Assembly (NCBI GenBank): GCA_030681895.1
Contig: JAUXRI010000107.1
Span: forward strand, 30,167 to 94,166
Length of the DNA stretch: 64,000 nucleotides
Direction: 5' to 3'
Origin: Myxococcales bacterium
GTDB lineage: Bacteria; Myxococcota; Myxococcia; Myxococcales; Myxococcaceae
Positions within the stretch are counted from its first letter, which is position 1. The number at the start of each line of letters is the position of its first letter. Under the pieces are notes generated by a model. That model did no database searches, was not told where the DNA came from, and saw only the letters and a program-made list of their open reading frames with translations. Of this stretch, positions 13,935-46,399 are shown in pieces. Made by a program: the position numbers and the translations under genes.

Positions 13935-14079
13935 GCTGTGCCGTCGATGCAGGCGCCGCCGGAGCCCGGCATCGGAGCTGTTCCCGGCCTCGACGACCCT
14001 CGCCCGTCTCGACCGAATCGTCTCGTTCGCGGTTCGGAATCGATTGACTCCGCACGCCCTCGCCTCAAGGAAGGCACTC

Positions 14080-15444: not shown

Positions 15445-15553
15445 TCGCCGTGCCCTGACACGGGTGTCGCCTCAAATTCCCGAGGGTGCCTCGCGCGAAG
15501 TCGGCGCGAACACGGGGACGTTCGCTGGCCCGGTGCGTGCTCCAGGAGCGTGC

Positions 15554-15889: not shown

Positions 15890-16004
15890 GCGCATGGAGC
15901 GGTGATTTCGGGAGGTTCGCTCGTCTGCGCTCGAGGAGCGCACGGGCGAACGCGACATCTGCGGGCTGGTGACCCTCCGTGGTGAACCCTGCCCGGAGCA
16001 CCTC

Positions 16005-16652: not shown

Positions 16653-16709
16653 GTCGAGGTCGGTCCACTCCGCGCTGGCCTTGTGACGGCTGCCCGCTAA
16701 CCTCGCGCC

Positions 16710-17597: not shown

Positions 17598-17606
17598 AAG
17601 AGCGCC

Positions 17607-17900: not shown

Positions 17901-17932
17901 GCCTGATGGACGAACGAGCCGACGGAAACCGG

Positions 17933-19480
17933 TCAGCGCGCGTCGCCAGCGAGCACGACGAGGCCAAGGTTGGCCGTCACGAAGTGCAACAGGCCGAACG
18001 AGCCGACCGCGAGCTGGTCTCCGACGTCGAGCTTGAGGCCGAGCGCCCCGAAGCTCCCCAGGCGGGCGAACGCCAGGAGCAGACCTGCGTCGACGGTGAC
18101 CGCGGGAGCGAGCTCACGCCTGGCTCCAGCGCTGCCCGCACCCGAGAGGATGCCGATTGCCCCGCCGCCCACCGACACCGTGGCGCGAAGCTCCGACGAG
18201 CCCGAGATGAGCGTCGGCTCCCAGCTCACGGCGGTCGAGGCGGTGAACTCGGGGAAGACGAACGTGGTGGGCAGCACGCCGAAGTCCTGCTCGAGCTGCT
18301 GCCTCGTGCCGCGCGGAATCGACACGACGTACGAGGCCCGCAGCACCCGCCAGCCGAACGCGCTCGAGAAGAAGTGCGTGAAGTCGACCTGCGGCGCGAC
18401 GCCGACCGTGAAGGTGTCGAGCGGCGCCACGCTCACCATCACGCCCACCGCCTCGCGTCCGCGCAGCTGCGAAGGCCCCTTCGTCGGCAGCATGAGCGTG
18501 CCCACCAGCGTGAGGTCGGCCTCGGCGAGCGTCGTCGCGGTGTCTGGCTTCACCTGCACTTCCCGCGAGAACACCTGGCCGTCTTTGACCCGCCGCACGA
18601 GATACGGCCCCGGCACGAGCGCGAGGCGGAGCACTTGTTCTCCCGGCGCTGCCTCGACGACCGTGATGCCCGTCGACAGCTGCACCACCTCGAGCGGCCC
18701 CTGCGTCTGCGCGACGACGAGCTGCGTGCCTGCCTTCGGCACCGTGGTGAGCACCACGTCCTGCCGGCCGCGAAGGCGAAGGTCGAAGCTCGGGTGCTGT
18801 GCCTCGCGGCTGCGCGTCGCGGTGTCTCGAATGGTGAGCCGGTTCGCGTAGGCGAAGGCCTCCGACAGCGTCACCTGCCCGTCGCCTGACGAGTCCGCCG
18901 CGCCGCGCAGGCCGCCGACGAGGTGATGGGTGAAGAAGCTCCCTTGCAGCACCTCGGCCTCGTGCGCGTCTTCGAGGCCCGAGCTCGCGGCGAGGAGCGC
19001 GGTGCCTTCACTCGAGAGCGCCGGCACGCCGACCTCGAACGGCTTCGTCGGCGTCAGTCCCTTCGCCTGCGTCCACCCACCGCCACGACACGCGTCGATG
19101 ATGCCGATGCGCACGCCGGAGTTCGAATCGCCGAGCCGTTCCTTGAGCGTCGCGAGCGGGAGCGGCTTTCCACCCGGGTAGAGCGCGGCTTCGTCGGCGT
19201 GGCCTGAGTAATAGAAGACGAGGAGCCCATCGGCAGCGGCCTCGGTGCGGGCCTGCGCGAGGGCAGCGAGGACATCGTCGGGGCTCGCGTCGAGCAGCAC
19301 GCGCACGTCGGACGCCGAGAAGCCGCCGCTCGTGCGAAGGACGTCGGCCAGGTTCTGCGCGTCGCGGTGCGCGAAGTGGAGCGGGGTGCGGCCTTCGATG
19401 GCTGCGTTCGAGCCGACCAGCACGGCGCGGCGGGCGGGCGTGGCGGCGGTGACGAGGCTGAGCACGAGGGCGCTCAGCAT
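17933..19480 (-). CDS. Secreted caspase-like (C14) protease fused to an outer-membrane barrel-like domain
   Basis: This 515-residue protein starts at the ATG at 19480, overlapping the stop of the anti-sigma gene (TGATG), with GGGGGAAG upstream. A signal peptide (LSALVLSLVTAA) precedes a caspase-fold domain (about 14-245). The catalytic dyad is H94 in YYSGHAD and C131 in DACRGGG. An EF-hand-like loop, DSSGDGQVTL, follows near 192-205. The middle part (about 250-335) looks beta-sandwich-like. The C-terminal region from about 345 (VGVAPQVDFTHFFSSAFGW, then SYVVS and DFGVLP) resembles the outer-membrane beta-barrel domain common in myxobacteria and continues with Gly-rich strands. Orthocaspases are usually cytosolic, so export and fusion to a barrel are unusual. 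Substrate unknown. Confidence 0.8.
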   Translation of the reverse strand: MLSALVLSLVTAATPARRAVLVGSNAAIEGRTPLHFAHRDAQNLADVLRTSGGFSASDVRVLLDASPDDVLAALAQARTEAAADGLLVFYYSGHADEAALYPGGKPLPLATLKERLGDSNSGVRIGIIDACRGGGWTQAKGLTPTKPFEVGVPALSSEGTALLAASSGLEDAHEAEVLQGSFFTHHLVGGLRGAADSSGDGQVTLSEAFAYANRLTIRDTATRSREAQHPSFDLRLRGRQDVVLTTVPKAGTQLVVAQTQGPLEVVQLSTGITVVEAAPGEQVLRLALVPGPYLVRRVKDGQVFSREVQVKPDTATTLAEADLTLVGTLMLPTKGPSQLRGREAVGVMVSVAPLDTFTVGVAPQVDFTHFFSSAFGWRVLRASYVVSIPRGTRQQLEQDFGVLPTTFVFPEFTASTAVSWEPTLISGSSELRATVSVGGGAIGILSGAGSAGARRELAPAVTVDAGLLLAFARLGSFGALGLKLDVGDQLAVGSFGLLHFVTANLGLVVLAGDAR

Positions 19481-30236: not shown

Positions 30237-32132
30237 ATGTCGCAGTGGAACGCACCCAACCTGATCGCCGCCATCGATGAGTCGAAGGGCATGACCGAGA
30301 AGGGCTACACCTTCCTCGACCGCGACCAGAAGGAGCTCTTCCTCTCGTGGGACGGCCTTCGCGCCGAAGCGATGAAGCGCGCCGCGCACTTCCGCAAATA
30401 CGGCCTGAAGAAGGGCGACCGCGTGGCGATGGTGCTGCCCGACGGTGAAGACTTCGTGCCCACGTTCCTGGGCGCCGTGTGGGCCGGCCTCGTGCCGGTG
30501 CCGCTGTACCCGCCGCTCTCGCTCGGCAAGCTCGACAGCTACCGCGACACCATGGTGGCCGTGCTGAGCAAGGCCGAGCCGACGTACCTGGTCACCTTGA
30601 GCAAGATGCAGCAGGTGCTCTGGGCCGGCCTCACGCACGTGAAGTCACTCAAGGGCGTCATCACTGCCGAGGAGCTCAAGGGCCCCGCGCCTGAAGGCGT
30701 CTCGCAAGACCCCGCGCAGGTGACCGACGACGACCTCGCGTTCCTGCAGTTCACCTCGGGCTCGACCTCGACGCCCAAGGGTGTGGCCGTCACGCACGGC
30801 AACCTTCGCGCGAACGCTCACGCCATCATGGTCGACGGGTTGAAGTCGGACTCCGCGACGGACCACGGCGTCTCGTGGCTTCCGCTGTACCACGACATGG
30901 GTCTCATCGGCTTCGTCATCGCCCCCATGTTCCACAAGGTGGCGGTGACGTTCATCCCCACCATGGCGTTCGTGCGCAGCGCGACGTTGTGGTTCGAGAC
31001 CATTCACCGCGTGCGCGGCACCATCACCATCGCGCCGAACTTCGCGTACGCGCTCGCCACCAAGCGCACCAAGCCCGAGCAGCTCGCCCGCTGGGACCTC
31101 TCGTGCGTGAAGGCCTTCGGCTGCGGCGCCGAGCCCATCAACTCGGGCACGATGCGCACGTTCGTCGACACGCTCTCGAAGGCGAAGCTCAACCCGAACG
31201 CGCTGCTGCCCTGCTACGGCATGGCCGAAGCGACGCTCGCCATCAGCTTCATCGGCATGGACGAGACGCTCTCGACCGACGTCATCGACACCGAGGCCTA
31301 CCAGAAGCACCGCACCGCCGAGCCCGTGCACCTCTCGAAGCTGGGCGAAGGCAAAGCGCAAGAGGTCGTCAACTGCGGCAAGACCTTCCCCGGCCACGAG
31401 GTCGGCATCTTCGACGACGAAGGCAAGCGGCTGAACGACCGGCGCATTGGTGAGATTCAGGTGCGGGGCCCCAGCATCGCGAAGGGCTACTTCCGCGACA
31501 CCGAAGCCACCGAGCGCACGTTCGGCAGCGGCTGGCTGAAGACCGGCGACCTCGGCTACCTGGCGAACGGAAATCTGTACATCGTGGGTCGCAAGAAGGA
31601 CATCATCATCATCAACGGGCGCAACTACGACCCGCAGCGCCTCGAGTGGCTGGTCGATGAGATGGCCGGCGTGCGCAAGGGCTCCTCGGTTGCCTTCTCG
31701 AAGCCCGGCACCGCGAGCGAAGAGCTGATCATCGTCCTCGAGGCGCGCACCAGCAGCGTCACCGAGCTCGAGGCGCTCAAAGAAGCCGTCAAGCAGCGCA
31801 TCGTCGAGCAGATGCAGCTGACGCCGACCGACGTCGTGGTGTGCCCCGTCGGCTCGTTGCCCAAGACCTCGAGCGGCAAGCTGCAACGTTCGAAGACGCG
31901 ACAGCAGTACCTCGACGGCACCGTCGGCAAAGAAGGCAACCGCACCATCGGCTCCAGCGGCGAGAAGGTCGTGCTCGCCCGGCACGTCGCGATGTCGCTG
32001 CTCGGACGGTCCCGCCACCGCGCACGCCGTGTCGTCGAGCACGCCCTCGAGGTGCGCTCGGTCGATGACGCCGTCGGCAAGCTCAAGCTCGCTGGCGACT
32101 ACTTCAGCAACCGCCTCACTCGCCTCTTCTGA
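30237..32132 (+). CDS. Fatty acyl-AMP ligase (FAAL)
   Basis: This 631-residue adenylate-forming enzyme starts at the ATG at 30237 with GGGAGGA upstream. The ATP-binding P-loop is LQFTSGSTSTPKGV (from about residue 171), with VSWLPLYHDMGLIGF and the hinge GRKKDIIIINGRNYDP. HDMGLIG and the IIIINGRNYDPQRLE stretch are typical of FAALs (FadD32-like) rather than acyl-CoA ligases. It should activate a fatty acid as acyl-AMP and transfer it to an ACP, probably the free ACP encoded next. It is the first gene of the four-gene operon. The C-terminal tail after about residue 575 is an extra Arg-rich extension. Confidence 0.92.
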   Translation: MSQWNAPNLIAAIDESKGMTEKGYTFLDRDQKELFLSWDGLRAEAMKRAAHFRKYGLKKGDRVAMVLPDGEDFVPTFLGAVWAGLVPVPLYPPLSLGKLDSYRDTMVAVLSKAEPTYLVTLSKMQQVLWAGLTHVKSLKGVITAEELKGPAPEGVSQDPAQVTDDDLAFLQFTSGSTSTPKGVAVTHGNLRANAHAIMVDGLKSDSATDHGVSWLPLYHDMGLIGFVIAPMFHKVAVTFIPTMAFVRSATLWFETIHRVRGTITIAPNFAYALATKRTKPEQLARWDLSCVKAFGCGAEPINSGTMRTFVDTLSKAKLNPNALLPCYGMAEATLAISFIGMDETLSTDVIDTEAYQKHRTAEPVHLSKLGEGKAQEVVNCGKTFPGHEVGIFDDEGKRLNDRRIGEIQVRGPSIAKGYFRDTEATERTFGSGWLKTGDLGYLANGNLYIVGRKKDIIIINGRNYDPQRLEWLVDEMAGVRKGSSVAFSKPGTASEELIIVLEARTSSVTELEALKEAVKQRIVEQMQLTPTDVVVCPVGSLPKTSSGKLQRSKTRQQYLDGTVGKEGNRTIGSSGEKVVLARHVAMSLLGRSRHRARRVVEHALEVRSVDDAVGKLKLAGDYFSNRLTRLF

Positions 32133-32205
32133 TCAGTCTTTCACGTTTCCGGCAACACGCAGTCCAACCGCTCCTCGCGAGCCCATCAGCAAAAAGCCCA
32201 ACACC

Positions 32206-32466
32206 ATGGCAACCGTCCACATCCCCACGCTGTTCCAGCAGGCCGCTCTCGAAGTCAGCGGCAAGAAGCTCGACAACCTCACCGGCGCCACCGTCATCTC
32301 GAAGCTCGGCCTCGACTCCGTCGCCGTCATGGAGCTCGTCGCGCACTTCGAAGAGAAGCTGAACATCCGCATGCCGGATGAAGACCTCGCGAAGGTGCAG
32401 ACGGTGGCCGACCTCGGCGGGCTCGTGAAGCGCCTGATGCCGGCCGGCTCCGAAGTCACCTGGTGA
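32206..32466 (+). CDS. Free acyl carrier protein
   Basis: This 86-residue ACP has the phosphopantetheine attachment site LGLDSVAV (Ser38) followed by MELVAHFEEKLNIRMPDED, the usual helix II-III pattern. It starts at the ATG at 32206; a longer upstream frame is not supported. Located between the FAAL and PKS genes (73- and 56-bp gaps), it is the probable acceptor of the FAAL-activated acyl group and donor of the starter unit to the PKS ketosynthase. A phosphopantetheinyl transferase is not seen in the window. Confidence 0.92.
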   Translation: MATVHIPTLFQQAALEVSGKKLDNLTGATVISKLGLDSVAVMELVAHFEEKLNIRMPDEDLAKVQTVADLGGLVKRLMPAGSEVTW

Positions 32467-32522
32467 GCTGCTCGTCGCGTCGCTGAACCGTCGTTTTTCG
32501 ACTCTCTCTCCAAGAGGTCCTC

Positions 32523-35500
32523 GTGAGCCAGCCTTCCTCGCCTCAGCGGAACGCAGACATCGCCGTCATCGGCATGGCTTGCCGCTTCCCGCACGCGAAG
32601 GACCTGCCCGAGCTCTGGAAGGTCGTCTCGACGGGAGAGGTGACGTTCGAGAACATCGACGACTCGCGGTGGAAGCACTCGCACTTCGTCGACACGAAGG
32701 ACCCGCGCGCGCCCGACAAGTCGTACGTGCTCAAGGGCGCGTTCATCGATGGCGTCGACGAGTTCGCGGCGCTGCACTACGGCCTGGCTCCGCGGCGCGT
32801 GCAGGTGATGGACCCGCAGCAGCGCATCGCCATCGAAGCCACCCGCCAGGCCCTGCAGGACGCGGGCTACGACACGAGGCCCTTCGACAAGCTGCACACC
32901 GGCGTCTTCCTCGGTGCGTCGGTGAGCGAGTACCGCGACCTGATGACGGCCCGGCACCGCGCGATGCAGATGGTGAGCGGCGAGTTCGGTGACGCGCTCT
33001 CGCCCTCTGAGCAGGAGGCCATTCGCGCCTCGGTCGCCGACGTCGTGCCCGCGCGAGCGTTCTCCATCGCCGGCGGGTTGCTGAACATGATCGCCTGCTC
33101 CGTCTCGCAGACGTTCGACCTGAGCGGGCCCGCGATGCAGATCGACGCGGCGTGCTCCTCGGCGCTGGTCGCGATTCACGAGGCGGTCGTCAACCTGCGC
33201 GCTGGCGTCTGCAACATGGCGGTGGCCGGCGGCGTGTACCTGAACCTCGGCCCCGACAACCTCGTCGGCTTCTCGCGCATCGGCGCCATCTCGCCGTCCG
33301 GAGCCTGCCGTCCGTTCGACGCCAAGGCCGATGGCTTCGTGATGGGTGAAGGCGTCGGCGTCGTCATCCTGAAGCGGCTCGACGAAGCGCTGCGCGATGG
33401 CGACCGCGTGTACGCCGTCATCAAGGGTACCGGCTGCAACAACGACGGGCGCGGTGAAGGCCCGATGACGCCGCGGCCCGAAGGCCAGAAGGACGCGATG
33501 CGCCGCGCGCACGCCCAGCTCGACTTCGGCGTCGACACCATCACCTACGTCGAGACGCACGGCACCGCGACGTCCGTTGGCGACGTGGTGGAAGTCGGAG
33601 CGCTGCGCCAGTTCTTCTCGGAGCGCCTCGGCAAGCCAGTCGACGAGCAGTACTGCTGGCTGGGCAGCATCAAGGCCAACGTCGGCCACACCATGTCGGC
33701 GGCCGGTGTCGCGGGCTTCATCAAGACGTGCCTCATGATGCACCACGGCGTCATTCCTCCGCAGCCGGCCATCGAGGAGCTCAACCCCAAGCTCGACTTG
33801 CCGAGCTCGCCCTTCAAGCTGTCGAGCATCGCGACCCCGTGGACGACGAAGCCCGGCGTTCCCCGTCGCGCCGCCGTCTCGAGCTTCGGCTTCGGTGGCA
33901 CCAACGCGCACGTCGTCATCCAGGAGCCCGCGAAGCGCGTCGTCACCGTCGAGAAGCAGGAGCCCCAGTTGGTGCTCCTCTCGGCGCCGACGCCCGCGCT
34001 GCTCGCGACCACCGCGCAGGTGCTCGCTGCACACGTCACCACCCACTCGCTCGACGTCGCTGCGGTTGCAGCCGCCCTCGCGAGCCGCCAGGCCTTCGAC
34101 GCGCGCGCTGCCTTCCTCGCCACCTCGCGTGAGCAGTTGGTCGAGACGCTCACCGGCCTCCACGCCGCGTTGACGGCCCACGCGCCGATGCCGGCTGGCG
34201 TCACCTACGCCGAAGCACCGCTGCCGCCCGAGTCGCGCAAGCTCGCTTTCCTGTTCCCCGGCCAGGGAGCGCAGAAGGTCGGCCTGCTCGAAGACGTGGT
34301 GAAGCGCTTCCCGTTCCTCTCGGAGCGTCTGGCCGAGCTCGACGCCGCAGCGAAGGACGCAGCCGGCTGCTCCATCGTCGACGCGCTGTACCCGAAGGAC
34401 CGCACGAACCTCGCCGCCGCGCAGACGCACCTCACGCGCACCGAGGTCTGTCAGCCCGCGATGGCGGCGCTCGGCCTCGCGCTCTCGGAGTTCCTCGGCA
34501 CGCTCGGCGTCTCGCCTGACGTTGCGCTCGGCCACTCGCTCGGTGAGTTTGCGGCGGCGGCATCTGGCGGAATGCTGAGCGCAGAGGATTCGGTTCGCCT
34601 CGTCGCGCGGCGCGGGCAGTTGATGAACGCGCTCAAGCTCGAAGACCCGGGCGCGATGCTCGCCGTCATGGCCGAGGCCAGCGTCGTCGAGCCGTTGCTC
34701 GCGAAGCTCAACGCCACGCTCAACGACACGGGAAGCTCCGCAGCGGCGAAGACCGGCCTTCATCTCGCTCCCGCGGCACCCCAGCAGCACGTCGCGCTCG
34801 CGAACCACAACCACCCGACGCAGGTCGTCCTCTCGGGCACCACGGCTGGCATCGACGCGGCGCAGAAGCTGCTCGGTGACGCGGGCCTCAAGTGCACGCG
34901 CCTCGACGTGTCGCACGCCTTCCACTCGCCGCTGATGGCCGGCATCGACGTCGGCATGCAGAAGCTCATCGCCGAGCTCGCCGTGCACCCCGCGCAGCGT
35001 CCCGTCGTCTCCTGCATCTCGGGCCGCACGTACGACTCGGTCGCCGACGCGAAGGCCATCTGGGTGAAGCACGCCTCGGCGCCGGTGCGCTTCGTCGACG
35101 CGCTCGAGGCCTGTGTCCAGCACGGCGCTTCGCTCTTCATGCAGGTCGGCGCCGGCAACGCGCTCACCGCGTTCGCGCGTGGCGTGGTGAAGGCGGGCCC
35201 GGTGGAGACGGGGAACCGCTTCTTCTCGCTCGGTCTCAACGACAGCGGTGACTCGGTCAGCGCACTCTTCCAGACCCTCGCGGCGTTGTGGGTGAAGGGC
35301 GCTCCGGTGAACGCGTCGCCGCTGTTCGCGCGCGCCACCATGGCGATGCTGCCGCCGTCGTTGCTCGAGACGCAGAAGTACTGGGCCGTGGAGCGCGTGC
35401 AGCGTGCGCCCCGCCAGCCGCTCGTGCCCGCGACGTCGATTCCTTCAGGCGCGTCTCTTGGCGCTCCGCTTCAGACTTCTTTCCCCGTCACGGCTTCACG

Positions 35501-38500
35501 TGGAGTCCCCATGGACAACCTCATCGCCCTCTTCCAGCAGCAGATGCAGCTGCTCCAGAGCCAGGCCGAGATTCTGAAAGCCCAGTCGAACGCCATCGCC
35601 GCACTCGCGCAGGGCCAGGCGCCCGGGCTCGCGCAGGCCATGGGCCAGATGTCGTCGATGCAGATGACGATGCAGCCCTCGGGAGCCGTCGGCGCCAGCG
35701 TCGTCCAGCAGCCCGTGATGATGCCCGGCGTGATGCCGACGCCGGTCGGCGCGCCGCACGTCAATGGCACCAACGGTCACGGCAACGGCCATACCCACGG
35801 CGTGCCGCAGGCAGCGAAGCCGGTCAGCTTCTCGAACCTGGTCGCCTCGAAGGAGCCCGAGAAGAAGGACGCCGCGCCCGTCGTCGTCGATGCCCGCCCG
35901 CAGGCCCAGGCGAAGGTGCTCGAGGCCGTCGCGCGCATCTCGGCGTTCCCCATGGGCAGCCTCAAGAACGAGCAGACGCTGGTCGGTGAGCTGGGCTTCG
36001 ACTCCCTCATGCTGGTGGAGCTCGACCAGTCCATCGGCAAGGCGTTCCCCACGCTCGGTGGCCTGCCGCGTGAGCTGTTTGGCCGCTCCACCACCGTCCT
36101 CAACATCGTCGACTACGTCGCGAACACGCTGATCAAGGGCGTCTCGAAGGTCGCAGACGACGCGAGCGCCAACCTGCCCGTCGAGCGCCGGTTGCCGACC
36201 GTCACGCCCGCGCCGCTCACCTCGCTCACCGAGAGCGTCGTTCGGTTCGACAAGCCGGTGCTCGTCACGCGTGATGGCAAGGGGCTCGCGGAGGCTGTCG
36301 CGAAGAAGCTGGGCGAGCACGGCGTCGCGGCGACCGTCGGCGACCTGAACGCGCCCGGAGAGTTCGGCGGCGTCATTCATCTCGGCGAGCTGTCGGCGTC
36401 GGGTGACTACAAGGCCTCCACGCGTACGCTCCTGCAGCTCGCGCAGCGCCTCACCGCGGACAAGGCGGAGCTCTTCATCACCGTCACCGGCCTCGGCGGC
36501 GGCTTTGGACTCAACGGCACCAGCAAGGAGCAGCTCGGCCAGGCCGGCGCCATCGGCTTCACCCAGGCGCTCTCGCAGGAGTGGACCGACGCGCTGGTGA
36601 AGGCCATCGACGTCGACGCGACGCTGCCCGCGACGGAGCTCGCCTCGCACCTCGTCGACGAGCTCTTCTCTGGCGACCGCACCACCGAGGTTGGCTTCAC
36701 GAAGCAGGGTCGCGTCGCGGTGTCGTTGCTCCCGATGGCGGCGCCGGCGAAGGCTGCCAACCTCACCGCCGCCTCCGTCCTCGTCATCACCGGTGGCGCG
36801 AAGGGCCTCGGACTCAAGCTGGCGAAGGCGCTCGCGAAGCAGACCGGCGCGACGATTGCGCTGACGGGCCGCTCGGCGCCCAACGAAGAAGTCGCCAAGG
36901 CGTGCGCGCAGGTGAAGGGCGCAGGCGCGAAGGCGTGCACCTACCACCCGATGGACGTGCGTGACGCGGCCAACGTGAAGACGGCCATCGACGCGATTCG
37001 CACGGCGCACGGCCGCATCGACGGCGTCGTGCACGCGGCTGGTGTGCTGGCTGACGCGCTGGTCGAGAAGAAGACGCTCGCCGGTGTCGACGGCGTGCTC
37101 GAGACGAAGGTCGGCGGAGCGCTCTCGCTGCTCGAGGCGACGAAGACCGACGCGCTGGTGCTCTTCGCAGGCGTCGGCTCGTGGGCCGGCCGCTTCGGCA
37201 ACGCGGCGCAGACCGATTACTCGGCGGCGAACCGCATGCTCGCGCGCGTGGCCCGGCCGGGCGTGCGCTGCGTCACCATCGACTCTCCGCCGTGGGAAGA
37301 CTCGGACATGGCCCGCAAGATTCCGGGCTTCAAGAAGGCCGAGCTCAAGGCGAGCGGCGTGACGTTCCTCGGTGACGAAGAGGGCGTGGCGGCGTTCATG
37401 ACCGAGCTGCTCGGCGGCTCTGGCGAAGTGCTCATCGGCCGCAACCTGCCGGAGCGCACGCTCACTCACGCGACGACGTTCCCCGTCTCGCGCCTCAACC
37501 ACGTCTACCTGAACGACCACACCATGGCCGGTCAGCGCGTGGTGCCGCTCGCAGCCGCGATGGACCACGTCACCGCCGCGGCGCTCGACGTCGCGAAGAA
37601 GGACCTCGGCTTCACGCCCTTCACCGTCTCGGACTTCTCGCTCGAGCGCGCCATTCTCGTGCCTGACACGACGTGGCTCGACGTCGCGGTGACGGAGCAG
37701 GTGCGCGGCGGTGCTGCCGGGCCGGTTCAGGTCACGCTCTCACAGAACAGTGCGCGCTCGTACGCGGGCACGGTGACGCTCGGCGCTCACGGCGACGCAC
37801 CGGCCATCAAGACGCTCGCCTCGGCGGGTCCGCTGCCGATGACGCTCGAGGACTTCTACAAGGGCTTCACGTTCCACGGTCCCCGCCTGCAGGGCATCAC
37901 GCGCATCGACACGCTCGCTGAAGACGGCGTCGTCGGGTGGGTGAAGGGCAGCACGCCGGCCGACTGGGTGAAGGAGCCGCTGCGCCACACGTGGGCCGTC
38001 GACCCGCTCATCATCGACGCGTCGTTCCAGCTCGCGGGCTACTGGGCGTGGACGAAGCTGCAGCGCGCCGGCTTCCCCATCGGCGTCGGCCGCTTCGTGC
38101 AGCTCGCGCCGTTCGGTCTCGGCCCCATCAAGTGCACCGTGACGTTCGAGGCGTCGAGCGACGACCTCTTCGCCGGCACGCTCGTGTGGCAAGACGCCGC
38201 CGGCAAGGTGCTCGCGTACATGACGGGCGCGAAGGCCGAGTTCAAGAAGCGCGACCCGCAGTTCCAGGTGCCCCGCGCGTCGGCGCCGCGTACCGCTCCG
38301 GTGGCTGCCGTGACGTACCAGGCCGAGCCGCCTGCGCCTGTCGCACTCGCTGAGGCGCCCGCGGAGGTCGAGACGGCTGACGAGGTGAACGCTCCGGCGC
38401 TCGCGCTCGATGAGTCGTCGTGGAATCCGGCGAAGTTCCCCGAGTACGAGGCGCTCCAGGAGCGGCTGCAGATGGCCGAGGCGTTCGGCCTGCGCAACCC

Positions 38501-39644
38501 GTACTTCTCGGTGCACGAGGCGCTCTGCGGCGACACCACCGTCGTCAACGGCAAGGAGATGATCAACTTCTCCTCGTACAACTACGTCGGCAACTCGGGC
38601 GACCCGGTCGTGACCAAGGCCGCGCAGGACGCCATCGCGAAGTACGGCACCTCGGTGTCGGCGAGCCGCGTCGCGTCGGGTGAGAAGCCGCTGACCCTCG
38701 AGCTCGAGAAGGCCCTCGCCGGCTTCTTCGGCACCGAAGACTGCATCGTGCTCGTGTCGGGCCACGCCACGAACGTCACCGTCATCGGGCACGTGGTGGG
38801 CTCGGGAGACCTCATCCTCCACGACGCGCTCGCGCACGACTCCATCATCCAGGGCGCGAAGCTGTCGGGTGCGAAGCGCCGCCCGTTCCCGCACAACGAC
38901 TTCGCCGCGCTCGACCGCATGCTCACCAGCCTGCGCCCGCACTACCGTCGCGTCGTCATCTGCATCGAGGGCACCTACTCGATGGACGGTGACATTCCCG
39001 ACCTGCCCGCGTTCATCGAAGTGAAGAAGAAGCACAAGGCCATGCTGCTCGTCGACGAGGCGCACTCCGCCGGTGTCGTGGGCAAGACGGGCAAGGGCGT
39101 CGGCGAGTACTTCGACGTCAATCGCGCCGACGTCGACATGTGGATGGGCACGTTGTCGAAGTCGTTTGCTTCATGCGGCGGCTACATCGCGGGCTCCCAC
39201 GCCCTCGTCGAGTACCTCAAGTACACGACGCCCGGCTTCGTCTACTCGGTCGGCATCGCGCCGCCCAACGCCGCCGCCGCGCTCGCCTCGACGCACCAGA
39301 TGCTCGCCCACCCGGAGCGCGTGCAGCAGCTGCAGAAGAACGCGAAGTACTTCCTCGAGCTGCTCAAGGCGCGCGGCATCAACACCGGCATGTCGAAGGA
39401 CTCGGCCGTCGTGCCGGCCATCATCGGCAACTCGATTCTGTGTCTGCAGTTGTCCGACGCGCTCAAGACGCGCGGCATCAACGTGCAGCCGATTCTCTAC
39501 CCGGCCGTCGAAGAAGACATGGCGCGCCTGCGCTTCTTCATCTCGTCCCTGCACAAGCCCGAGCAGCTGCTGAAGTCGGCCGACATCATCAAGGAAGAGC
39601 TCGACCGCCTCACGCGCGAGCTCAACGGCGAAGCAGTCGCGTAA
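32523..39644 (+). CDS. Type I PKS with KS-AT-ACP-KR-DH and a C-terminal alpha-oxoamine synthase
   Basis: This protein has 2373 residues. The KS (about 10-470) has an intact C211 (DAACSS), H346 (HGTATS), H389 (NVGHT) triad. The AT (about 570-905) has S672 in GHSLGE and HAFHS at 801, the malonyl-CoA type. A Gln/Met-rich linker with a His/Asn/Gly tract follows. The ACP has S1161 in LGFDSLML. The KR has GGAKGLG near 1425 and catalytic Y1566 in TDYSAAN. The DH-like hot-dog domain has H1666 in DHTMAGQRVVP and D1832 in DASFQ. The AOS domain (about 1965-2373) has the PLP lysine K2213 in TLSKSF. There is no ER or thioesterase. The order resembles PfaA-type PUFA and enediyne synthases. The AOS would release the chain by decarboxylative condensation with an amino acid, giving an alpha-amino ketone, as in SxtA or PigH. 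Product unknown. Confidence 0.93.
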   Translation: MSQPSSPQRNADIAVIGMACRFPHAKDLPELWKVVSTGEVTFENIDDSRWKHSHFVDTKDPRAPDKSYVLKGAFIDGVDEFAALHYGLAPRRVQVMDPQQRIAIEATRQALQDAGYDTRPFDKLHTGVFLGASVSEYRDLMTARHRAMQMVSGEFGDALSPSEQEAIRASVADVVPARAFSIAGGLLNMIACSVSQTFDLSGPAMQIDAACSSALVAIHEAVVNLRAGVCNMAVAGGVYLNLGPDNLVGFSRIGAISPSGACRPFDAKADGFVMGEGVGVVILKRLDEALRDGDRVYAVIKGTGCNNDGRGEGPMTPRPEGQKDAMRRAHAQLDFGVDTITYVETHGTATSVGDVVEVGALRQFFSERLGKPVDEQYCWLGSIKANVGHTMSAAGVAGFIKTCLMMHHGVIPPQPAIEELNPKLDLPSSPFKLSSIATPWTTKPGVPRRAAVSSFGFGGTNAHVVIQEPAKRVVTVEKQEPQLVLLSAPTPALLATTAQVLAAHVTTHSLDVAAVAAALASRQAFDARAAFLATSREQLVETLTGLHAALTAHAPMPAGVTYAEAPLPPESRKLAFLFPGQGAQKVGLLEDVVKRFPFLSERLAELDAAAKDAAGCSIVDALYPKDRTNLAAAQTHLTRTEVCQPAMAALGLALSEFLGTLGVSPDVALGHSLGEFAAAASGGMLSAEDSVRLVARRGQLMNALKLEDPGAMLAVMAEASVVEPLLAKLNATLNDTGSSAAAKTGLHLAPAAPQQHVALANHNHPTQVVLSGTTAGIDAAQKLLGDAGLKCTRLDVSHAFHSPLMAGIDVGMQKLIAELAVHPAQRPVVSCISGRTYDSVADAKAIWVKHASAPVRFVDALEACVQHGASLFMQVGAGNALTAFARGVVKAGPVETGNRFFSLGLNDSGDSVSALFQTLAALWVKGAPVNASPLFARATMAMLPPSLLETQKYWAVERVQRAPRQPLVPATSIPSGASLGAPLQTSFPVTASRGVPMDNLIALFQQQMQLLQSQAEILKAQSNAIAALAQGQAPGLAQAMGQMSSMQMTMQPSGAVGASVVQQPVMMPGVMPTPVGAPHVNGTNGHGNGHTHGVPQAAKPVSFSNLVASKEPEKKDAAPVVVDARPQAQAKVLEAVARISAFPMGSLKNEQTLVGELGFDSLMLVELDQSIGKAFPTLGGLPRELFGRSTTVLNIVDYVANTLIKGVSKVADDASANLPVERRLPTVTPAPLTSLTESVVRFDKPVLVTRDGKGLAEAVAKKLGEHGVAATVGDLNAPGEFGGVIHLGELSASGDYKASTRTLLQLAQRLTADKAELFITVTGLGGGFGLNGTSKEQLGQAGAIGFTQALSQEWTDALVKAIDVDATLPATELASHLVDELFSGDRTTEVGFTKQGRVAVSLLPMAAPAKAANLTAASVLVITGGAKGLGLKLAKALAKQTGATIALTGRSAPNEEVAKACAQVKGAGAKACTYHPMDVRDAANVKTAIDAIRTAHGRIDGVVHAAGVLADALVEKKTLAGVDGVLETKVGGALSLLEATKTDALVLFAGVGSWAGRFGNAAQTDYSAANRMLARVARPGVRCVTIDSPPWEDSDMARKIPGFKKAELKASGVTFLGDEEGVAAFMTELLGGSGEVLIGRNLPERTLTHATTFPVSRLNHVYLNDHTMAGQRVVPLAAAMDHVTAAALDVAKKDLGFTPFTVSDFSLERAILVPDTTWLDVAVTEQVRGGAAGPVQVTLSQNSARSYAGTVTLGAHGDAPAIKTLASAGPLPMTLEDFYKGFTFHGPRLQGITRIDTLAEDGVVGWVKGSTPADWVKEPLRHTWAVDPLIIDASFQLAGYWAWTKLQRAGFPIGVGRFVQLAPFGLGPIKCTVTFEASSDDLFAGTLVWQDAAGKVLAYMTGAKAEFKKRDPQFQVPRASAPRTAPVAAVTYQAEPPAPVALAEAPAEVETADEVNAPALALDESSWNPAKFPEYEALQERLQMAEAFGLRNPYFSVHEALCGDTTVVNGKEMINFSSYNYVGNSGDPVVTKAAQDAIAKYGTSVSASRVASGEKPLTLELEKALAGFFGTEDCIVLVSGHATNVTVIGHVVGSGDLILHDALAHDSIIQGAKLSGAKRRPFPHNDFAALDRMLTSLRPHYRRVVICIEGTYSMDGDIPDLPAFIEVKKKHKAMLLVDEAHSAGVVGKTGKGVGEYFDVNRADVDMWMGTLSKSFASCGGYIAGSHALVEYLKYTTPGFVYSVGIAPPNAAAALASTHQMLAHPERVQQLQKNAKYFLELLKARGINTGMSKDSAVVPAIIGNSILCLQLSDALKTRGINVQPILYPAVEEDMARLRFFISSLHKPEQLLKSADIIKEELDRLTRELNGEAVA

Positions 39645-39692
39645 CTTTTCACTCTCCCGAAGTTCTCACACGAAGGCGAAGGACCCTCCGAC

Positions 39693-40571
39693 ATGACCTC
39701 CACGAAGGCTGAAGTCGAAATCGGCTACGACATCTCGAACGAGTTCTTCCGGCTCTGGCTGGATGAGCGCATGCACTACACCTCGGCCGTCTACGACGCC
39801 GAGCACACCACGCTGGAGCAGGCGCAGCGCAACAAGAGCAAGTGGCTCGCCGACTTCGCCGAGGTGGGTCCCGACTCGCTCGTGCTCGACATCGGCTGCG
39901 GCTGGGGCGCCAACCTCGAGTACCTGGCGCTCGAGCGAAAGGTGAAGAACGCGCACGGCATCACGTTGTCGAGCGCGCAGTTCGAAGAGATCAACGCGCG
40001 CAAGCTGCCCGGCGTGCAGGTGTGGTGCGTCGACTACCGCGACTACAAGCCGGCGGCGCTGTACGACGGGCTCGTCAGCATCGAGATGATCGATCACCTC
40101 GTCTCACCGGCCCAGCAGAAGGAAGGCCAGGCGATTCAGATCTACCGCGAGTACTTCAACAAGGCCGCGCAGTGGGTGAAGCCCGGCGCGTGCTTCGGCT
40201 TCCAGGCGATTCTGCGCGACCGCGTGCCGCGCACTCGCAAGGACCTCGAGGATCTCAAGTTCACCGCCGACGTCATCTTCCCCGGCGGCCTCAACCCGCG
40301 CATGGAAGAGCTCGTCGAGGCGTGCGGCCAGTCGTGGGAGATCGTACAGCTCAACACCCGCCGCCAGGACTACGGCAAGACGACCGCCGAGTGGCTGCGC
40401 CGCTTCCGCGCCAACAAGGAGAAGATCATGGCGTCGGGCTGGGGCACCAAGGTGATGTCGAACGGTGAGACGGTGTGGACGAACTACGACCGCTACCTGT
40501 CGACGTGCGTGAAGGCGTTCGCGAACCACTGGTCGAGCGACGTGCAGATGAAACTGCGCAAGAAGGACTGA
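39693..40571 (+). CDS. CFA synthase-type SAM-dependent methyltransferase
   Basis: This 292-residue protein starts at the ATG at 39693 with AAGGA upstream, 48 bp after the PKS. The SAM-binding motif VLDIGCGWGANLEYLA and the segment GITLSSAQFEEIN match cyclopropane-fatty-acid synthases and mycolic-acid cyclopropanases, with the family's SIEMIDHL region. It lacks the long N-terminal domain of E. coli Cfa, like mycobacterial CmaA/MmaA. It probably methylates or cyclopropanates a double bond in the product or its fatty-acid precursor (inference). It is the last gene of the operon and is followed by a strong hairpin. Confidence 0.9.
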   Translation: MTSTKAEVEIGYDISNEFFRLWLDERMHYTSAVYDAEHTTLEQAQRNKSKWLADFAEVGPDSLVLDIGCGWGANLEYLALERKVKNAHGITLSSAQFEEINARKLPGVQVWCVDYRDYKPAALYDGLVSIEMIDHLVSPAQQKEGQAIQIYREYFNKAAQWVKPGACFGFQAILRDRVPRTRKDLEDLKFTADVIFPGGLNPRMEELVEACGQSWEIVQLNTRRQDYGKTTAEWLRRFRANKEKIMASGWGTKVMSNGETVWTNYDRYLSTCVKAFANHWSSDVQMKLRKKD

Positions 40572-40988: not shown

Positions 40989-41122
40989 CGGAGTTCCCTT
41001 CGTCCAGGCGCCGCGCACTTCAAAGTGCATTTTCGGAACGTGGCTCCAACGCCGAGGTGAATTGCCAATCGGTCGGTCGAGGGTCCACTCGTAGTCTAGC
41101 GCTCTCCCGGGGGGGAATACGG

Positions 41123-42835
41123 ATGACGACGATTCGGCTTCTGGCGGTCGCGGCGATGGGCCTGGCGGTGCAGGCCTGCAACTGTGGGTCGGGCATGCAG
41201 CAGATGACGGGCGGCGGGAGCGCTGGTGGGCAGTCGAACTCCAACGGAGGCGGACGCGCGGGTGGGTCCGCGGCTGGAGGTGGCTCGACTGCGGGCGGCT
41301 CGACTGCGGGCGGCTCGACGGCTGGCGGTGCCGCGGGTGGCTCCATGGCTGGCGGTGCCGCGGGTGGCTCGACGGCTGGTGGAGCTGCGGGTGGCTCGAC
41401 GGCTGGTGGCGCTGCGGGCGGGTCGACGGCTGGTGGTGCTGCGGGTGGCTCGACGGCTGGCGGCTCCGCGGGCGGTCTGACCGACGGAGGCGTCGACATC
41501 GGCTGTGCGGTCGTTCTCCCGATTCGGCACGACGCCGGCACGATGGATGGCTTCTGCTCAACCCCGCTCCTTGTCGGCACGCTGCCAGCGCTCGTCTACG
41601 GAGACACCCGCACGGGCTTCGACACCCAGACCACTTGCGGGCTCGGCATCGCAGGCTCAGGCGAACGGAACTACCGCATCACCGTTCCGACGGCTGGTGA
41701 GCTCACCATCGACTTGACCAACCTGAGCTTCGACGCCGGCTTCAAACCAGTCATCGGTGTGTATACGAATTGCCAATTCAACTCGGGCTACCCGCGCGGC
41801 TGTCTGCCTTCCCATCCTTCGCTCCAGGTCACCCACCTCGTCATGCCTGCCCTCGATGCAGGGAGCTACATCGTCGCGGTCGACGGCTTCGATGGCACCA
41901 GCGGAGACTTCTCGCTCTCGATGTGTCTGCGGCAGACCCGGGTCAGCGCCGCAGGAGACACCTGCGCCAACCCCGTTCCCCTGGCATTCACCGGCCAGAG
42001 CGCCTTCCTCGAGGGAAACACCCTGGGAATGAACGACGACGTCGCCTTCGTTCGCGATGACGGAGTCCCCTGCCTCGGAGAGATCGACCGCACCTTCTCA
42101 TTGGACCTGCCAGACGCGGGGCCGGGCACCGTCTGGGACGTGCACGCGCGCGCGTGGCCGCTGACCGACGAGTCCTTCGACCCGTTCCTGGTGTTCATCG
42201 ACTCGTGCACTGACGCGGGGATCGTCGACGCCGGCGTCATCGCCTGTGGCACGGGAATGGGGGGCTCCCCGTCGGGGCATCCGTTCACCGCGAGCCTCAA
42301 CCACCACCTCGGCGCAGGCCGACACTTCCTCTCGTTGCAGGCCGCCGCTGCCATTCAGGGTCGCCCCGAGGCCAGCTTCGCGCTCGAGGTCGAGTACGCG
42401 CGGGTCGGCTCGGTGTCGAATGACCTCTGCAGCGCGTCGTCGCCTGCCCTGCAGCCGAACACGAGCTACGCCGGCACGCTCCTCGGCGCGACGAATCAGC
42501 TCGATCAGCCGGTCTGCGCTGACCTGAGTGGACAGAACGGCGCGGGCGCCGAGGTCTTCTATCGCTACATCGCGACTGCCACTGGCATGGCCACCTTCGA
42601 GCTCCAGCCCGAGCTCGGCACGAGCTTCTATCTCGGCGTGTTCTCGGCCTGTGCGGCGAGCAGCTGCCTCACCATGCAGAACGCCAACGGCGTGCAGGGA
42701 GAGACGCGCACCACGCTTCCCGTCGTCCAGGGCACCACGTACTTCCTGATGGTCGAGGAGTACGACGTCGGCTCAACGCCTGCGACCATCGCGCTCGGCA
42801 ATCGCGGCGCGTTTGGCATACGCGTCACCCAGTGA
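41123..42835 (+). CDS. Lipoprotein with GGSTAGGAA linker and PPC-like domains
   Basis: This 570-residue lipoprotein has lipobox VQAC. A long low-complexity linker of GGSTAGGAA-type 9-residue repeats covers about residues 32-120. Three related beta-sandwich units of about 140 residues follow, each with a pattern like YRITVPTAGELTIDL then GVYTNC or equivalent. These recall bacterial pre-peptidase C-terminal (PPC) domains that bind substrates or help export. It is probably exposed at the surface or in the periplasm. The following gene starts 26 bp downstream, so the two lie in one operon. Confidence 0.75.
   Translation: MTTIRLLAVAAMGLAVQACNCGSGMQQMTGGGSAGGQSNSNGGGRAGGSAAGGGSTAGGSTAGGSTAGGAAGGSMAGGAAGGSTAGGAAGGSTAGGAAGGSTAGGAAGGSTAGGSAGGLTDGGVDIGCAVVLPIRHDAGTMDGFCSTPLLVGTLPALVYGDTRTGFDTQTTCGLGIAGSGERNYRITVPTAGELTIDLTNLSFDAGFKPVIGVYTNCQFNSGYPRGCLPSHPSLQVTHLVMPALDAGSYIVAVDGFDGTSGDFSLSMCLRQTRVSAAGDTCANPVPLAFTGQSAFLEGNTLGMNDDVAFVRDDGVPCLGEIDRTFSLDLPDAGPGTVWDVHARAWPLTDESFDPFLVFIDSCTDAGIVDAGVIACGTGMGGSPSGHPFTASLNHHLGAGRHFLSLQAAAAIQGRPEASFALEVEYARVGSVSNDLCSASSPALQPNTSYAGTLLGATNQLDQPVCADLSGQNGAGAEVFYRYIATATGMATFELQPELGTSFYLGVFSACAASSCLTMQNANGVQGETRTTLPVVQGTTYFLMVEEYDVGSTPATIALGNRGAFGIRVTQ
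41278..41478 (+). repeat. 27-bp tandem repeat encoding GGSTAGGAA
   Basis: About seven imperfect copies of a 27-bp unit code for Gly-Gly-Ser-Thr-Ala-Gly-Gly-Ala-Ala. The copies vary mainly at third positions, and one reads GGSMAGGAA. It is the flexible linker of the lipoprotein. Confidence 0.85.
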
Positions 42836-42861
42836 CCGCACGCACGCCAGGAGTCCCTCTC

Positions 42862-44316
42862 ATGCGCCTTCTCCATCTCGCTCTCGTCGTCGTGGCTCTC
42901 GCACTCGTGGCCTGCAGCGACAGTGAGGGTCAAGGGCCTCAAGGCCCACAAGGGCCGGAGGGACCACAGGGTCCTGCCGGTCCTCAAGGGCTGACCGGGC
43001 TCGCGGGCGCCGTTGGTCCTGCTGGCCCCGAAGGCGTCGCGGGTTCGGCCGGGGCGGTCGGTCCCGTCGGCCCTGCAGGGCCCGTTGGTCCTCAGGGGCC
43101 CGAGGGCCGCGTGTTGGTGCTCGACGGAGGCATCGTCACCGGGCCCGCTGGCCCCGCAGGCGCCTCAGTCGCCGTGACGAGGGTCGACGCCGGTGACCCA
43201 CGCTGTCCCGCTGGTGGCGCGGCGCTCGCCTCGACCGAAGACGGCGGACTGGTCGTGGTGTGCAACGGCTTGCCTGGTCTCCCCGGCGTCGCAGGGCCTG
43301 TTGGTTCCGCCGGGCCGGCCGGGTCGGTCGGCCCTGCCGGGCCTCAAGGCCTCGTCGGCCCGAGCGGGCAGGCTGGTGCGCAGGGCAATGCGGGGCCGCC
43401 GGGACCTGCAGGACCGATCGGTCCGCCCGGGCTGCAGGGCATCGCCGGGTCCGTCGGCCCAGTGGGACCCATCGGACCCATTGGCTTGACCGGCCCGCAG
43501 GGATCCGCTGGCGCCGTGGGAGCGCCCGGCCCTCAAGGTCCGCCCGGCGGTTCGGTGACCGGAGCCTCGGAAGCGCCCGGTCTCAACTGCACGCATGGCG
43601 GTGCCCGCTACACGACCGGTGCTGGCGTCACGACCTACGTGTGCAACGGCGCGCCTGGCCCCGCGACCATCGCCGGCTCACGCCCTTTCGGGCCGTGCGT
43701 GTGGACAGGCTCGTCGCTCAACTGCCCTGGCTCGTGCGTGTGGAGCACCACCACAGGCGAGGTCACCTGCGACACGGCCGCCGTCACGGGCTGCGGTGTG
43801 TTTGCATTCGGCCAGGGGAACTTCTGCGGGGGCAGTCTCGGCACCTACGCCTGCTACCTCTCGTGCATCGACTCGAGCAAAGCAGGTTGGGCCTTCGGCG
43901 ACGCGGTCGGCTCGAAGCTCATCAGCATTCCGTCTGCCAGCAGACCCGGCAACAGCGGCCGACTGAGCGTCGCGCTGCGGCACTCCAACGCGCTGGTCTG
44001 CACCTACCTGGCCTCGGCGACCTTCACGCTTCCCCTCACGCTCTACCTCTACAAAGGAGGCGCCGGGGAGGCGTCGCTGGTGTTGTGGAAGGGCGCCGTG
44101 CGGACCAACGGCGGGCTGAGCGGGTCGCGCGACTTCATCGACCTGCCGGCCATCGGGGGGACCGCGACGGTCACTCCTGGCACGTCCTATTCGCTCTGGC
44201 TCTCGGCCGGCCCCATCTCGGGGAGCACCACCGCGAACTGTTACCTGGCCCGGAGCTCAGCCGAGACGGTCGACGGCTTCATGATCAGCTACACCGAGGT
44301 CTCAGGCAGCCTCTGA
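42862..44316 (+). CDS. Collagen-like lipoprotein
   Basis: This 484-residue protein starts at the ATG at 42862 (AGGAG nine bases upstream). Its lipobox is LVAC. Two Gly-X-Y triplet regions of bacterial collagen type follow: about residues 22-90 (GPQGPQGPEGPQGPAGPQG) and about 150-245 (GPAGPIGPPGLQG). They are separated by a short non-collagen segment. A globular C-terminal domain (about 290-484) contains six or more cysteines (for example GCGVFAFGQGNFCGG). Bacterial collagens form triple helices used as stalks. The globular end probably binds a surface ligand (inference). Confidence 0.85.
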   Translation: MRLLHLALVVVALALVACSDSEGQGPQGPQGPEGPQGPAGPQGLTGLAGAVGPAGPEGVAGSAGAVGPVGPAGPVGPQGPEGRVLVLDGGIVTGPAGPAGASVAVTRVDAGDPRCPAGGAALASTEDGGLVVVCNGLPGLPGVAGPVGSAGPAGSVGPAGPQGLVGPSGQAGAQGNAGPPGPAGPIGPPGLQGIAGSVGPVGPIGPIGLTGPQGSAGAVGAPGPQGPPGGSVTGASEAPGLNCTHGGARYTTGAGVTTYVCNGAPGPATIAGSRPFGPCVWTGSSLNCPGSCVWSTTTGEVTCDTAAVTGCGVFAFGQGNFCGGSLGTYACYLSCIDSSKAGWAFGDAVGSKLISIPSASRPGNSGRLSVALRHSNALVCTYLASATFTLPLTLYLYKGGAGEASLVLWKGAVRTNGGLSGSRDFIDLPAIGGTATVTPGTSYSLWLSAGPISGSTTANCYLARSSAETVDGFMISYTEVSGSL

Positions 44317-45221: not shown

Positions 45222-46115
45222 TCAGGGAGCGATGGACGTCTGGAAGAGCTTCGACTCGCTCGCGGTCACCTTCACGGGGAACGGACCCGCCTGAATCGTG
45301 GTGGCGTTCACCGTGTTGAAGAAGAGCGACGCCGTGCCCGCAGGCAACGACGCGAAGACCGCCGGAGGAATCGTCGCGGTGCCCGCTGCGGCCGGGTACT
45401 CACAGGTGACCTGCTCCGAGCCGGCGAGCAGCTCGATGGCCACCGTGCCCGCGCCGCCGCTCCAGGTCATCGTGAGGCCCGCCGCCTTCGAGATCGCCGG
45501 GCAGGTGCTCTGCGCGCAGATCGGCGCCGTGAGCGTGGCTCCCGACGGTGCGGTCACCTGCGCCGTGAACGCTGGCACCGTCGCGCCGGTGGTCGACACG
45601 CCGATGGTCCCTCCCGGAATGAAGACCGCGCCCGAGATCGACGCCTGGTAGCCCAGCTCCATGGGCATGAGCGTCACGCCTCCGTCTGCCAGCCCGCTCA
45701 GGGTCACCACGCCCGCGCCGACGCGCCCACCATCGGGAGGCATGCCTGCATCGGCCGCCCGCGCGCAGTTCGAGATGGTGCACGAGCCGACCGTCGTTCG
45801 GGTGCAATCAGGGATGCCCGCAGGGATCTCGAAGAAGTTCGCGAGCACGAAGCCGGAGCGGAACGACTGCCCGGCCACCTCGAGCGTCGACTGGCTGATG
45901 GCGACCGAGCCAATCCGGAGCGGGGCTGATGACGAGCCACCAGCTGCGCCTCCCGCTGACGACGAACCACCAGCGGCTCCGCCCGCTGACGACGAACCAC
46001 CAGCGGCTCCGCCCGCCGACGCCGAACCACCAGCCGACGACGAGCCGCCATCGGCGCCCATCGTCATGGGACTGCACCCTGCTGCGACCAGCGCGACCAC
46101 GATCAGCTTCTTCAT
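45222..46115 (-). CDS. Lipoprotein with GGSSSAGGAA linker
   Basis: This 297-residue lipoprotein starts at the ATG at 46115 with GGAGGACAC upstream. Its lipobox is AAGC and its linker repeats GGSSSAGGAA (about residues 24-63). One beta-rich domain of about 230 residues follows, with six or more cysteines (PDCTRTTVGSCTISNC, PICAQSTCP). The domain resembles others in this window that are read as surface beta-sandwiches, but no family was recognised. The 284 bp upstream (46116-46399) hold no clear gene. Confidence 0.72.
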   Translation of the reverse strand: MKKLIVVALVAAGCSPMTMGADGGSSSAGGSASAGGAAGGSSSAGGAAGGSSSAGGAAGGSSSAPLRIGSVAISQSTLEVAGQSFRSGFVLANFFEIPAGIPDCTRTTVGSCTISNCARAADAGMPPDGGRVGAGVVTLSGLADGGVTLMPMELGYQASISGAVFIPGGTIGVSTTGATVPAFTAQVTAPSGATLTAPICAQSTCPAISKAAGLTMTWSGGAGTVAIELLAGSEQVTCEYPAAAGTATIPPAVFASLPAGTASLFFNTVNATTIQAGPFPVKVTASESKLFQTSIAP

Positions 46116-46399
46116 TCGATGTGTCCTCCCCGAGAACGGCGTCTGCGGCGCGCCGAGTGCCAATTGCGCGCCAGCGGCTCACGTCGTGCTTTCGGGGGAG
46201 TTCGGAGGACGTCGGGGCGTGCGTCGAGTTCACCTGACACCGACGCCATGACATCGGCGCCCGTCGCGTCACGCAGCCGCGTCCGCATCGCCGATGGCGA
46301 CTCCGGGCGTTCGGCGATCTGCCACCACGTCGTGAAGAAGACGCAGTCAGAGCCGGGTGCAGGGCTGACATCACGCGCGGCCGGGGCCGGGGGCGGGCT

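Follow-up and report, generated by a model that had tools for sequence, protein, structure and literature searches.

A widespread myxobacterial operon with a polyketide synthase fused to an alpha-oxoamine synthase, predicted to form sphingoid bases in place of serine palmitoyltransferase

A 64,000-nt stretch of contig JAUXRI010000107.1 from a Myxococcales genome (the window, meaning this whole stretch) contains a four-gene operon that encodes a fatty acyl-AMP ligase (FAAL), a free acyl carrier protein (ACP), a 2373-residue protein (P0002) in which a type I polyketide synthase (PKS) is fused to an alpha-oxoamine synthase (AOS), and a methyltransferase (MT). Judged from its sequence, this operon probably takes over from the canonical serine palmitoyltransferase (SPT) in forming the sphingoid base on which the cell's sphingolipids are built, a reading to which we assign a probability of roughly 0.68. 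The fused system is no lone oddity: it is widespread in Myxococcota, standing where SPT otherwise stands. Below, fetched loci bear L numbers, genomes bear G numbers (G000 being the source genome), and contigs of G000 bear C numbers.

Distribution of the fused system and of discrete serine palmitoyltransferase

The AOS part of P0002 matches 49 of 195 Myxococcota genomes at E <= 1e-90. Six of these (G012, G020, G105, G109, G110 and G121), in which the AOS belongs to other proteins, were excluded, five of them on assessment of their loci and G105 by frame length, leaving 43 genomes with the fused PKS/AOS or a FAAL-AOS system; G059, G063, G160 and G161, which are cut by contig ends, were assigned by AOS identity. 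The same 195 genomes were searched with the discrete SPT of L126, which has matches in 101 at E <= 1e-75 and in 86 at a strict cut-off of E <= 1e-110 that was chosen after a gap in the E-values (1.3e-116 to 8.4e-102) had been seen. At the strict cut-off no genome has both systems, and by genus, 26 have the fused system and 24 the discrete SPT among 90, with none shared; the Fisher p-values for this absence of overlap (1.7e-13 by genome, 1.1e-4 by genus) are both made too small by the relatedness of the genomes. Within the window's own family, 9 genera have the fused system, 14 have discrete SPT and none has both at this cut-off, and in G000 itself (88% complete) no discrete SPT orthologue was found at E <= 1e-75. 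The fused system is present in 6 of 7 genomes of the window's genus and is retained in three assemblies of 2.1-2.7 Mb.

CerR and CerS are reported to be required for ceramide in Caulobacter and E. coli BL21 (PMC9386255, PMC11324152, PMC11087976). CerS-like genes were found in all 86 genomes with discrete SPT and in 33 of the 43 with the fused system. G000 itself has CerS-like genes on contigs C38 and C220 and, on C101, a CerR-like gene whose product is 37% identical to its L126 counterpart. CerS has an SPT-like gene next to it in six stretches (L124-L128 and L132) that were chosen for close CerS-like and discrete AOS matches, or for such matches within a related genome, and CerR is also present in three of them; in L133, a discrete AOS is encoded without CerS. 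Other AOS proteins, in genomes that have discrete SPT as well, are encoded at L039 (G012, positions 8170-18737), L098 (G109, positions 5210-10546), L040 (G020), L096 (G121) and L097 (G110), some of them near a FAAL gene or a CMAS-type gene, and possibly represent separate amino-ketone pathways.

Ceramide genes also occur near relatives of the operon. Tallies were made over 38 non-redundant loci, namely 33 that encode PKS/AOS (window included) and 5 that encode FAAL-AOS, excluding duplicates (L041-L044, L079, L100-L102), stretches cut within the gene (L077, L099) and the other AOS proteins (L039, L040, L096-L098). Ten loci have a gene resembling CerS (YghO) within the stretch fetched, all 10 being matched by E. 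coli YghO itself, and 10 have a CerR-like gene, of which 7 (L031, L036, L037, L038, L081, L083 and L090) are matched by E. coli CerR over at least 300 aa, and 3 (L089, L091 and L093) are fully matched only through the short-chain dehydrogenase/reductase (SDR) of L091, which in the case of L091 is its own query. A CerS and/or CerR homologue is found near 18 of the 38 loci, or near 16 without L091 and L093. One locus, L031, carries CerS, CerR, FAAL, ACP, PKS/AOS, MT and a phosphopantetheinyl transferase (PPTase)-like gene together. PPTase-like genes are present at 7 of the 38 loci, 3 of which gave the queries. Tandem pairs of CerS-like genes lie upstream of FAAL at L027 (4969-7366) and L131 (6812-9219), and the second copy may have a different acyl or base preference.

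A single protein that joins FAAL to AOS with no PKS was found in four family f22 assemblies, which are 1.1-1.8 Mb in size and 73-96% complete, and in one Phycisphaerales metagenome-assembled genome (MAG). When three FAAL-AOS proteins were scanned with Pfam, an ACP was located between FAAL and AOS in L091 and L035, and none reached the Pfam threshold in L092. The FAAL-AOS genes of L091 and L093 each overlap, at their end, the start of an SDR gene; the product of the L091 SDR gene is an extended SDR by Pfam, and its 29% identity to E. coli CerR extends over no more than 177 aa. The single FAAL-ACP-AOS protein of L035 (7451-10422), in a Planctomycetota MAG, extends past the contig end. Because FAAL-AOS proteins without PKS exist, the constant core of the system seems to be the loading of a fatty acid and its condensation with an amino acid, to which the PKS is an added stage.

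Conservation of the operon

The nearest named relatives of the operon are in MAGs of Myxococcaceae and Archangiaceae. The whole PKS/AOS is encoded at 14 of 15 loci in named MAGs (the fifteenth, L035, encodes the different FAAL-ACP-AOS protein), and the gene order FAAL-ACP-PKS/AOS-MT is kept at all 14, so that the linkage is not by chance. When 14 other genes of the window were tested, L022 had 4 in common and L024 had 1, while L031 and L034 had a weak regulator-domain match alone. As query of a protein collection, the AOS part matched 1679 long proteins at E <= 1e-20 among 7985 scored, and 120 of these were listed. By profile scan, the order ketosynthase (KS), acyltransferase (AT), ACP, ketoreductase (KR), dehydratase (DH) and AOS is found in 31 of the 33 non-redundant PKS/AOS loci, the deviating loci being L082, with an additional KR match, and L089, without AT. 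A very long open frame in one genome was rejected as an artefact caused by masked bases.

The accompanying genes vary more. The MT gene is present at 19 of the 38 loci, either 3' of the AOS or between FAAL and ACP (L038, L086 and L090). Five of the fetched stretches yielded no FAAL: L080, L081 and L082 end close to the PKS/AOS gene and L095 reaches masked bases; the fifth, L037, is taken up below. An acyl-ACP desaturase was considered as a constant partner and rejected, its gene being present at 3 of the 38 loci (one of which gave the query); in G000 no match was found, in a search without a positive control there. No PPTase-like or acyl-ACP desaturase gene was found in the fetched flanks of the window and its five closest relatives.

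Affinity of the AOS domain and points against the assignment

The best PDB matches of the AOS domain are serine palmitoyltransferases (1.3e-64), with enzymes of the BioF/Kbl type close behind (3.6e-60). Trees group it with the FAAL-AOS proteins and with the AOS of SgaAB-like plasmid clusters, apart from the SPTs, and its identity is 53-56% to AOS proteins whose genes lie near PKS genes on plasmids of Pseudomonas, Paraburkholderia and Caballeronia, compared with 34-39% to SPTs. Its scores against the curated SPT models NF047600, NF047599 and NF047603 are 282.6, 257.4 and 220.8 bits, under their respective cut-offs of 640, 500 and 670. An ordinary SPT orthologue is rejected by the separate clade in the trees.

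Besides the inflated significance and the late choice of the strict cut-off, several observations weigh against the assignment of the operon to sphingoid base synthesis. The AOS lies outside the SPT clade and under every curated SPT, BioF and KBL cut-off, BioF scoring best of them, so that serine is only a probable substrate; the residue after the His that we presume to stack on pyridoxal 5'-phosphate (PLP) is Asp or Asn, compared with Ala in the three SPTs aligned. At the lax SPT cut-off 2 of the 43 genomes overlap (G008 and G161), and the six excluded genomes all have discrete SPT, such that including them gives an overlap of 6 in 49. CerS also occurs in 13 of the 66 genomes that lack both systems, and no CerS-like match was found in 10 of the 43 fused genomes, including all four FAAL-AOS genomes. 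G004, of the window's genus (85% complete), shows no fused AOS, no discrete SPT and no CerS. Neither a CerS nor a CerR gene occurs in the flanks fetched for the window and for the five relatives closest to it (L021-L024 and L026), and L037, without FAAL in 19.5 kb, is a true exception to the gene set.

Proposed pathway and alternative explanations

In the proposed pathway, the FAAL would activate a free fatty acid and load it onto the free ACP, as AasR does AcpR, after which the KS would accept the chain from the ACP and extend it with malonyl units, and the KR and DH would reduce and dehydrate it. As there is no enoyl reductase (ER), the acyl chain reaching the AOS would bear a 2,3 double bond. 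The internal ACP would deliver this chain to the AOS without release, and condensation there with an amino acid, L-serine being the likeliest, would give a 3-keto base that is possibly Delta4-unsaturated already. The MT would place one carbon on the chain, as a methyl group or in a cyclopropane, and CerS- and CerR-like proteins encoded elsewhere in the genome would N-acylate and reduce the base. The initial annotation had likewise predicted that a chain primed by FAAL and ACP is extended and then released, joined to an amino acid, in the form of a sphingoid-like amino ketone; this predicted logic gains strength from the ceramide genes near relatives, the near-exclusion with discrete SPT, and the one-protein FAAL-AOS forms without PKS, although the system is not alone and has a precedent.

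The operon might instead make no membrane lipid but a secondary metabolite, namely an amino-polyketide like the vitroprocines or fumonisin, in which case the AOS would serve as a chain-release enzyme only. A labelling-based proposal of PLP-dependent polyketide release with an amino acid has been made for the vitroprocines, with fumonisin cited there (PMC4523872), and other myxobacterial AOS proteins do occur in different PKS settings (L039 and L098). We consider this unlikely, since presence in 6 of 7 genomes of a genus and in assemblies of 1.1-2.7 Mb, together with ceramide genes near relatives and the near-exclusion with discrete SPT, fits a core lipid better.

A second alternative keeps the ceramide-type enzymes and changes the substrate: the AOS would take alanine, glycine or some further amino acid in place of serine, and the amino-ketone lipids so formed, 1-deoxy-sphingoid ones or others, would still feed those enzymes. 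BioF is an alanine-using enzyme, and its model gives the best NCBIfam score of the AOS, yet under cut-off; the position outside the SPT clade and the Asp/Asn in place of Ala next to the presumed PLP-stacking His point the same way. Set against these are the SPTs as best PDB matches and the 53-56% identity to the AOS of SgaAB-like clusters, SgaB being reported as nearly exclusive for L-serine (PMC12134224), a likeness drawn through those clusters with PfSgaB itself outside the comparison. On balance a substrate other than serine seems quite improbable.

If the operon does make the sphingoid base in place of canonical SPT, a search for canonical SPT, whose presence has been used as a marker of bacterial sphingolipid production (PMC12134224), misses about one fifth of the sampled Myxococcota genomes (43 of 195), and polyketide chemistry has replaced the initial committed step in making a core membrane lipid. 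A wider and more tentative proposal, which we hold to have somewhat less than even chances, is that in much of Myxococcota an iterative PKS wired to an SPT-like domain is the sole entry into sphingolipids, that it builds the sphingosine-type Delta4 bond during chain extension because it has no ER, and that the linked MT tailors the chain. Animals add the Delta4 bond later, by a desaturase. The operon would offer a way, open to direct testing, of obtaining unsaturated or methylated sphingoid bases with no desaturase involved, and P0002 a single-protein system for studying the hand-over of a PKS chain to a PLP enzyme.

Gene content and active sites

The four genes lie on the forward strand, separated by 73, 56 and 48 bases. 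The FAAL (30237..32132, 631 aa), a counterpart of AasR, matches PF00501 at 2.7e-60, and its best NCBIfam model is the fatty acyl-AMP ligase PRK09192 (511 bits, cut-off 600). The free ACP (32206..32466, 86 aa), a counterpart of AcpR identified by its sequence, with the site LGLDS, and its start codon (ATG at 32206), scores at most 37 bits against NCBIfam ACP models, under all their cut-offs. The PKS/AOS (32523..39644) is followed by a CMAS-type S-adenosylmethionine (SAM)-dependent methyltransferase (39693..40571, 292 aa; PF02353, 4.9e-50).

Pfam gives the order KS, AT, ACP, KR, DH and aminotransferase I/II (the AOS) in the PKS/AOS, and no match to ER, thioesterase (TE) or PPTase domains. The KS (residues 12-415, 32556..33767; PF00109 and PF02801) has C211, H346 and H389. 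The AT (residues 576-883, 34248..35171; PF00698) has S672 and the motif HAFH, which we take to be of the malonyl type. The internal ACP (residues 1131-1199, 35913..36119) falls slightly under the Pfam cut-off (PF00550, 20.0 bits against 20.8), while its S1161 is present in all 105 rows of an alignment that joins P0002 to 104 of the 120 listed matches, those exceeding 2000 aa. The KR (residues 1420-1591, 36780..37295; PF08659) has Y1566, the DH (residues 1637-1903, 37431..38231; PF21089 and PF14765) has HxxxGxxxxP, with H1666, and D1832, and the AOS (residues 1960-2373, 38400..39641; PF00155, 2.6e-49) has the PLP lysine K2213. Of 14 active-site positions checked in the alignment, 12 are invariant, and the AT Ser and AT His have one exception each. 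The initial annotation was correct as to the four genes and their coordinates, the nine residues that it had named (C211, H346, H389, S672, S1161, Y1566, H1666, D1832 and K2213) in their motifs, and the domain order ending in a PLP enzyme without TE or PPTase.

A scan of the window yielded no promoter-like sites, and terminator-like sites were at about chance level (7 found, 5.3 expected). Elsewhere in the window are a collagen-like protein with long Gly-x-y repeats (42832-44316; PF01391, 3e-20) and two lipoprotein-like proteins (41057-42835, and 45222-46163 on the reverse strand) with runs of GGSTAGG/GGSSSAGG-type repeats close to their N-termini.

The methyltransferase

Among PDB relatives of the MT, which include UmaA, MmaA1 and cyclopropane fatty acid (CFA) synthases, the mycolic-acid and cyclopropane enzymes are closest (2.9e-25), and plant N-methyltransferases are weak relatives (1.5e-9). 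Against curated CFA synthase models its best score is 116.9 bits, under the cut-off of 400. The usual active-site His of the LLHTI region, which we take to be the catalytic, bicarbonate-binding residue of CFA synthase, is Gln in all 28 MT rows (duplicates included), whereas only some of these rows deviate at the Cys and Glu in that pocket. C-methylation or cyclopropanation of the chain is favoured as the predicted activity. N-methylation of the released amine, as by coclaurine N-methyltransferase (a weak relative), would accommodate the uniform replacement of His by Gln as well as the weak relationship to the plant enzymes; it is nevertheless improbable, as the mycolic-acid and cyclopropane enzymes are much nearer, the acyl-ACP desaturase encoded at 3 of the 38 loci would provide an olefin, and a Neurospora ceramide C9-methyltransferase is reported to have carried a CFA-synthase-like annotation (PMC9325734).

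Comparison with known systems

The PfaA-type polyunsaturated fatty acid (PUFA) synthases and enediyne synthases have the domain order KS-AT-ACP-KR-DH, like P0002. The initial annotation had called the protein PUFA/enediyne-like, which holds for the domain order and not for family membership: it scores 659.9 bits against the PfaA model TIGR02813 (cut-off 1010.1) and 782 bits against a general PKS plus SDR model (cut-off 1740), and membership among the PUFA or enediyne synthases is rejected on the score under the PfaA cut-off. Unlike those synthases, P0002 has one ACP in its PKS, no PPTase domain, and an AOS at its terminus. An AOS at the C-terminus of a PKS is also found in fusions encoded on the Planktothrix agardhii plasmid p3 (L139, 2569-10167) and on a Streptomyces anthocyanicus plasmid (L136, 6344-11182), although their orders, KS-AT-DH-ER-KR-ACP-AOS and KS-AT-ACP-AOS respectively, differ from that of the window; no FAAL is annotated in the Planktothrix and Streptomyces stretches examined. 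PLP domains in PKS and nonribosomal peptide synthetases have been surveyed (PMC3870968).

The closest precedent is SgaAB of Pseudomonas fluorescens MYb115, reported in 2025, which consists of the PKS PfSgaA and the AOS PfSgaB and makes C24, C26 and C28 sphinganines (PMC12134224). The initial annotation had recognised no described pathway; the exact layout (fused, FAAL-primed and ER-less) was indeed not found in the open-access papers searched, where SgaAB, fungal pathways and general surveys came up, but with SgaAB published the kind is already known. In both systems the chain of an iterative type I PKS would be passed to an SPT-like AOS to form sphingoid bases, a likeness that runs through the plasmid clusters, the PfSgaA and PfSgaB sequences themselves being outside the comparison. 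PKS and AOS are separate genes in SgaAB, whereas they form one 2373-residue frame in the window, which adds FAAL, free ACP and MT. A related, highly reducing Pseudomonas plasmid PKS (L134), encoded beside an AOS, has the order KS-AT-DH-ER-KR-ACP, its ER being evident from ADH_zinc_N and ADH_N matches of which P0002 has none, whereas the window has KS-AT-ACP-KR-DH without ER.

In Caulobacter and E. coli BL21, AasR, a dedicated acyl-ACP ligase, is reported to load the dedicated AcpR, which feeds SPT (PMC9386255, PMC11324152, PMC11087976), and myxobacterial aasR-acpR pairs are reported in other gene settings (PMC9386255). E. coli BL21 AasR is annotated in RefSeq as a fatty acyl-AMP ligase (spt operon); it shares 35% identity with the FAAL of the window over 555 aa (1e-111), and this FAAL is its best match in G000 (1.1e-102). 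The window ACP is 34% identical to E. coli AcpR over 44 aa only (1e-5), and the window AOS is 34% identical to E. coli BL21 Spt over 370 aa. By homology and position, the window would share with AasR-AcpR-Spt-CerR-CerS an ACP of its own that supplies an AOS and, next to it, an acyl-ACP ligase dedicated to loading that ACP, and the fused system shares with it the CerS- and CerR-like genes near relatives, with homologues in the source genome. Unlike AasR-AcpR-Spt, the window has a whole PKS module inserted, fused to an AOS of another clade, and no discrete SPT. The layout is that of the Caulobacter and E. coli aasR-acpR-spt genes with a PKS inserted, and it combines two known schemes, AasR-AcpR-Spt and SgaAB.

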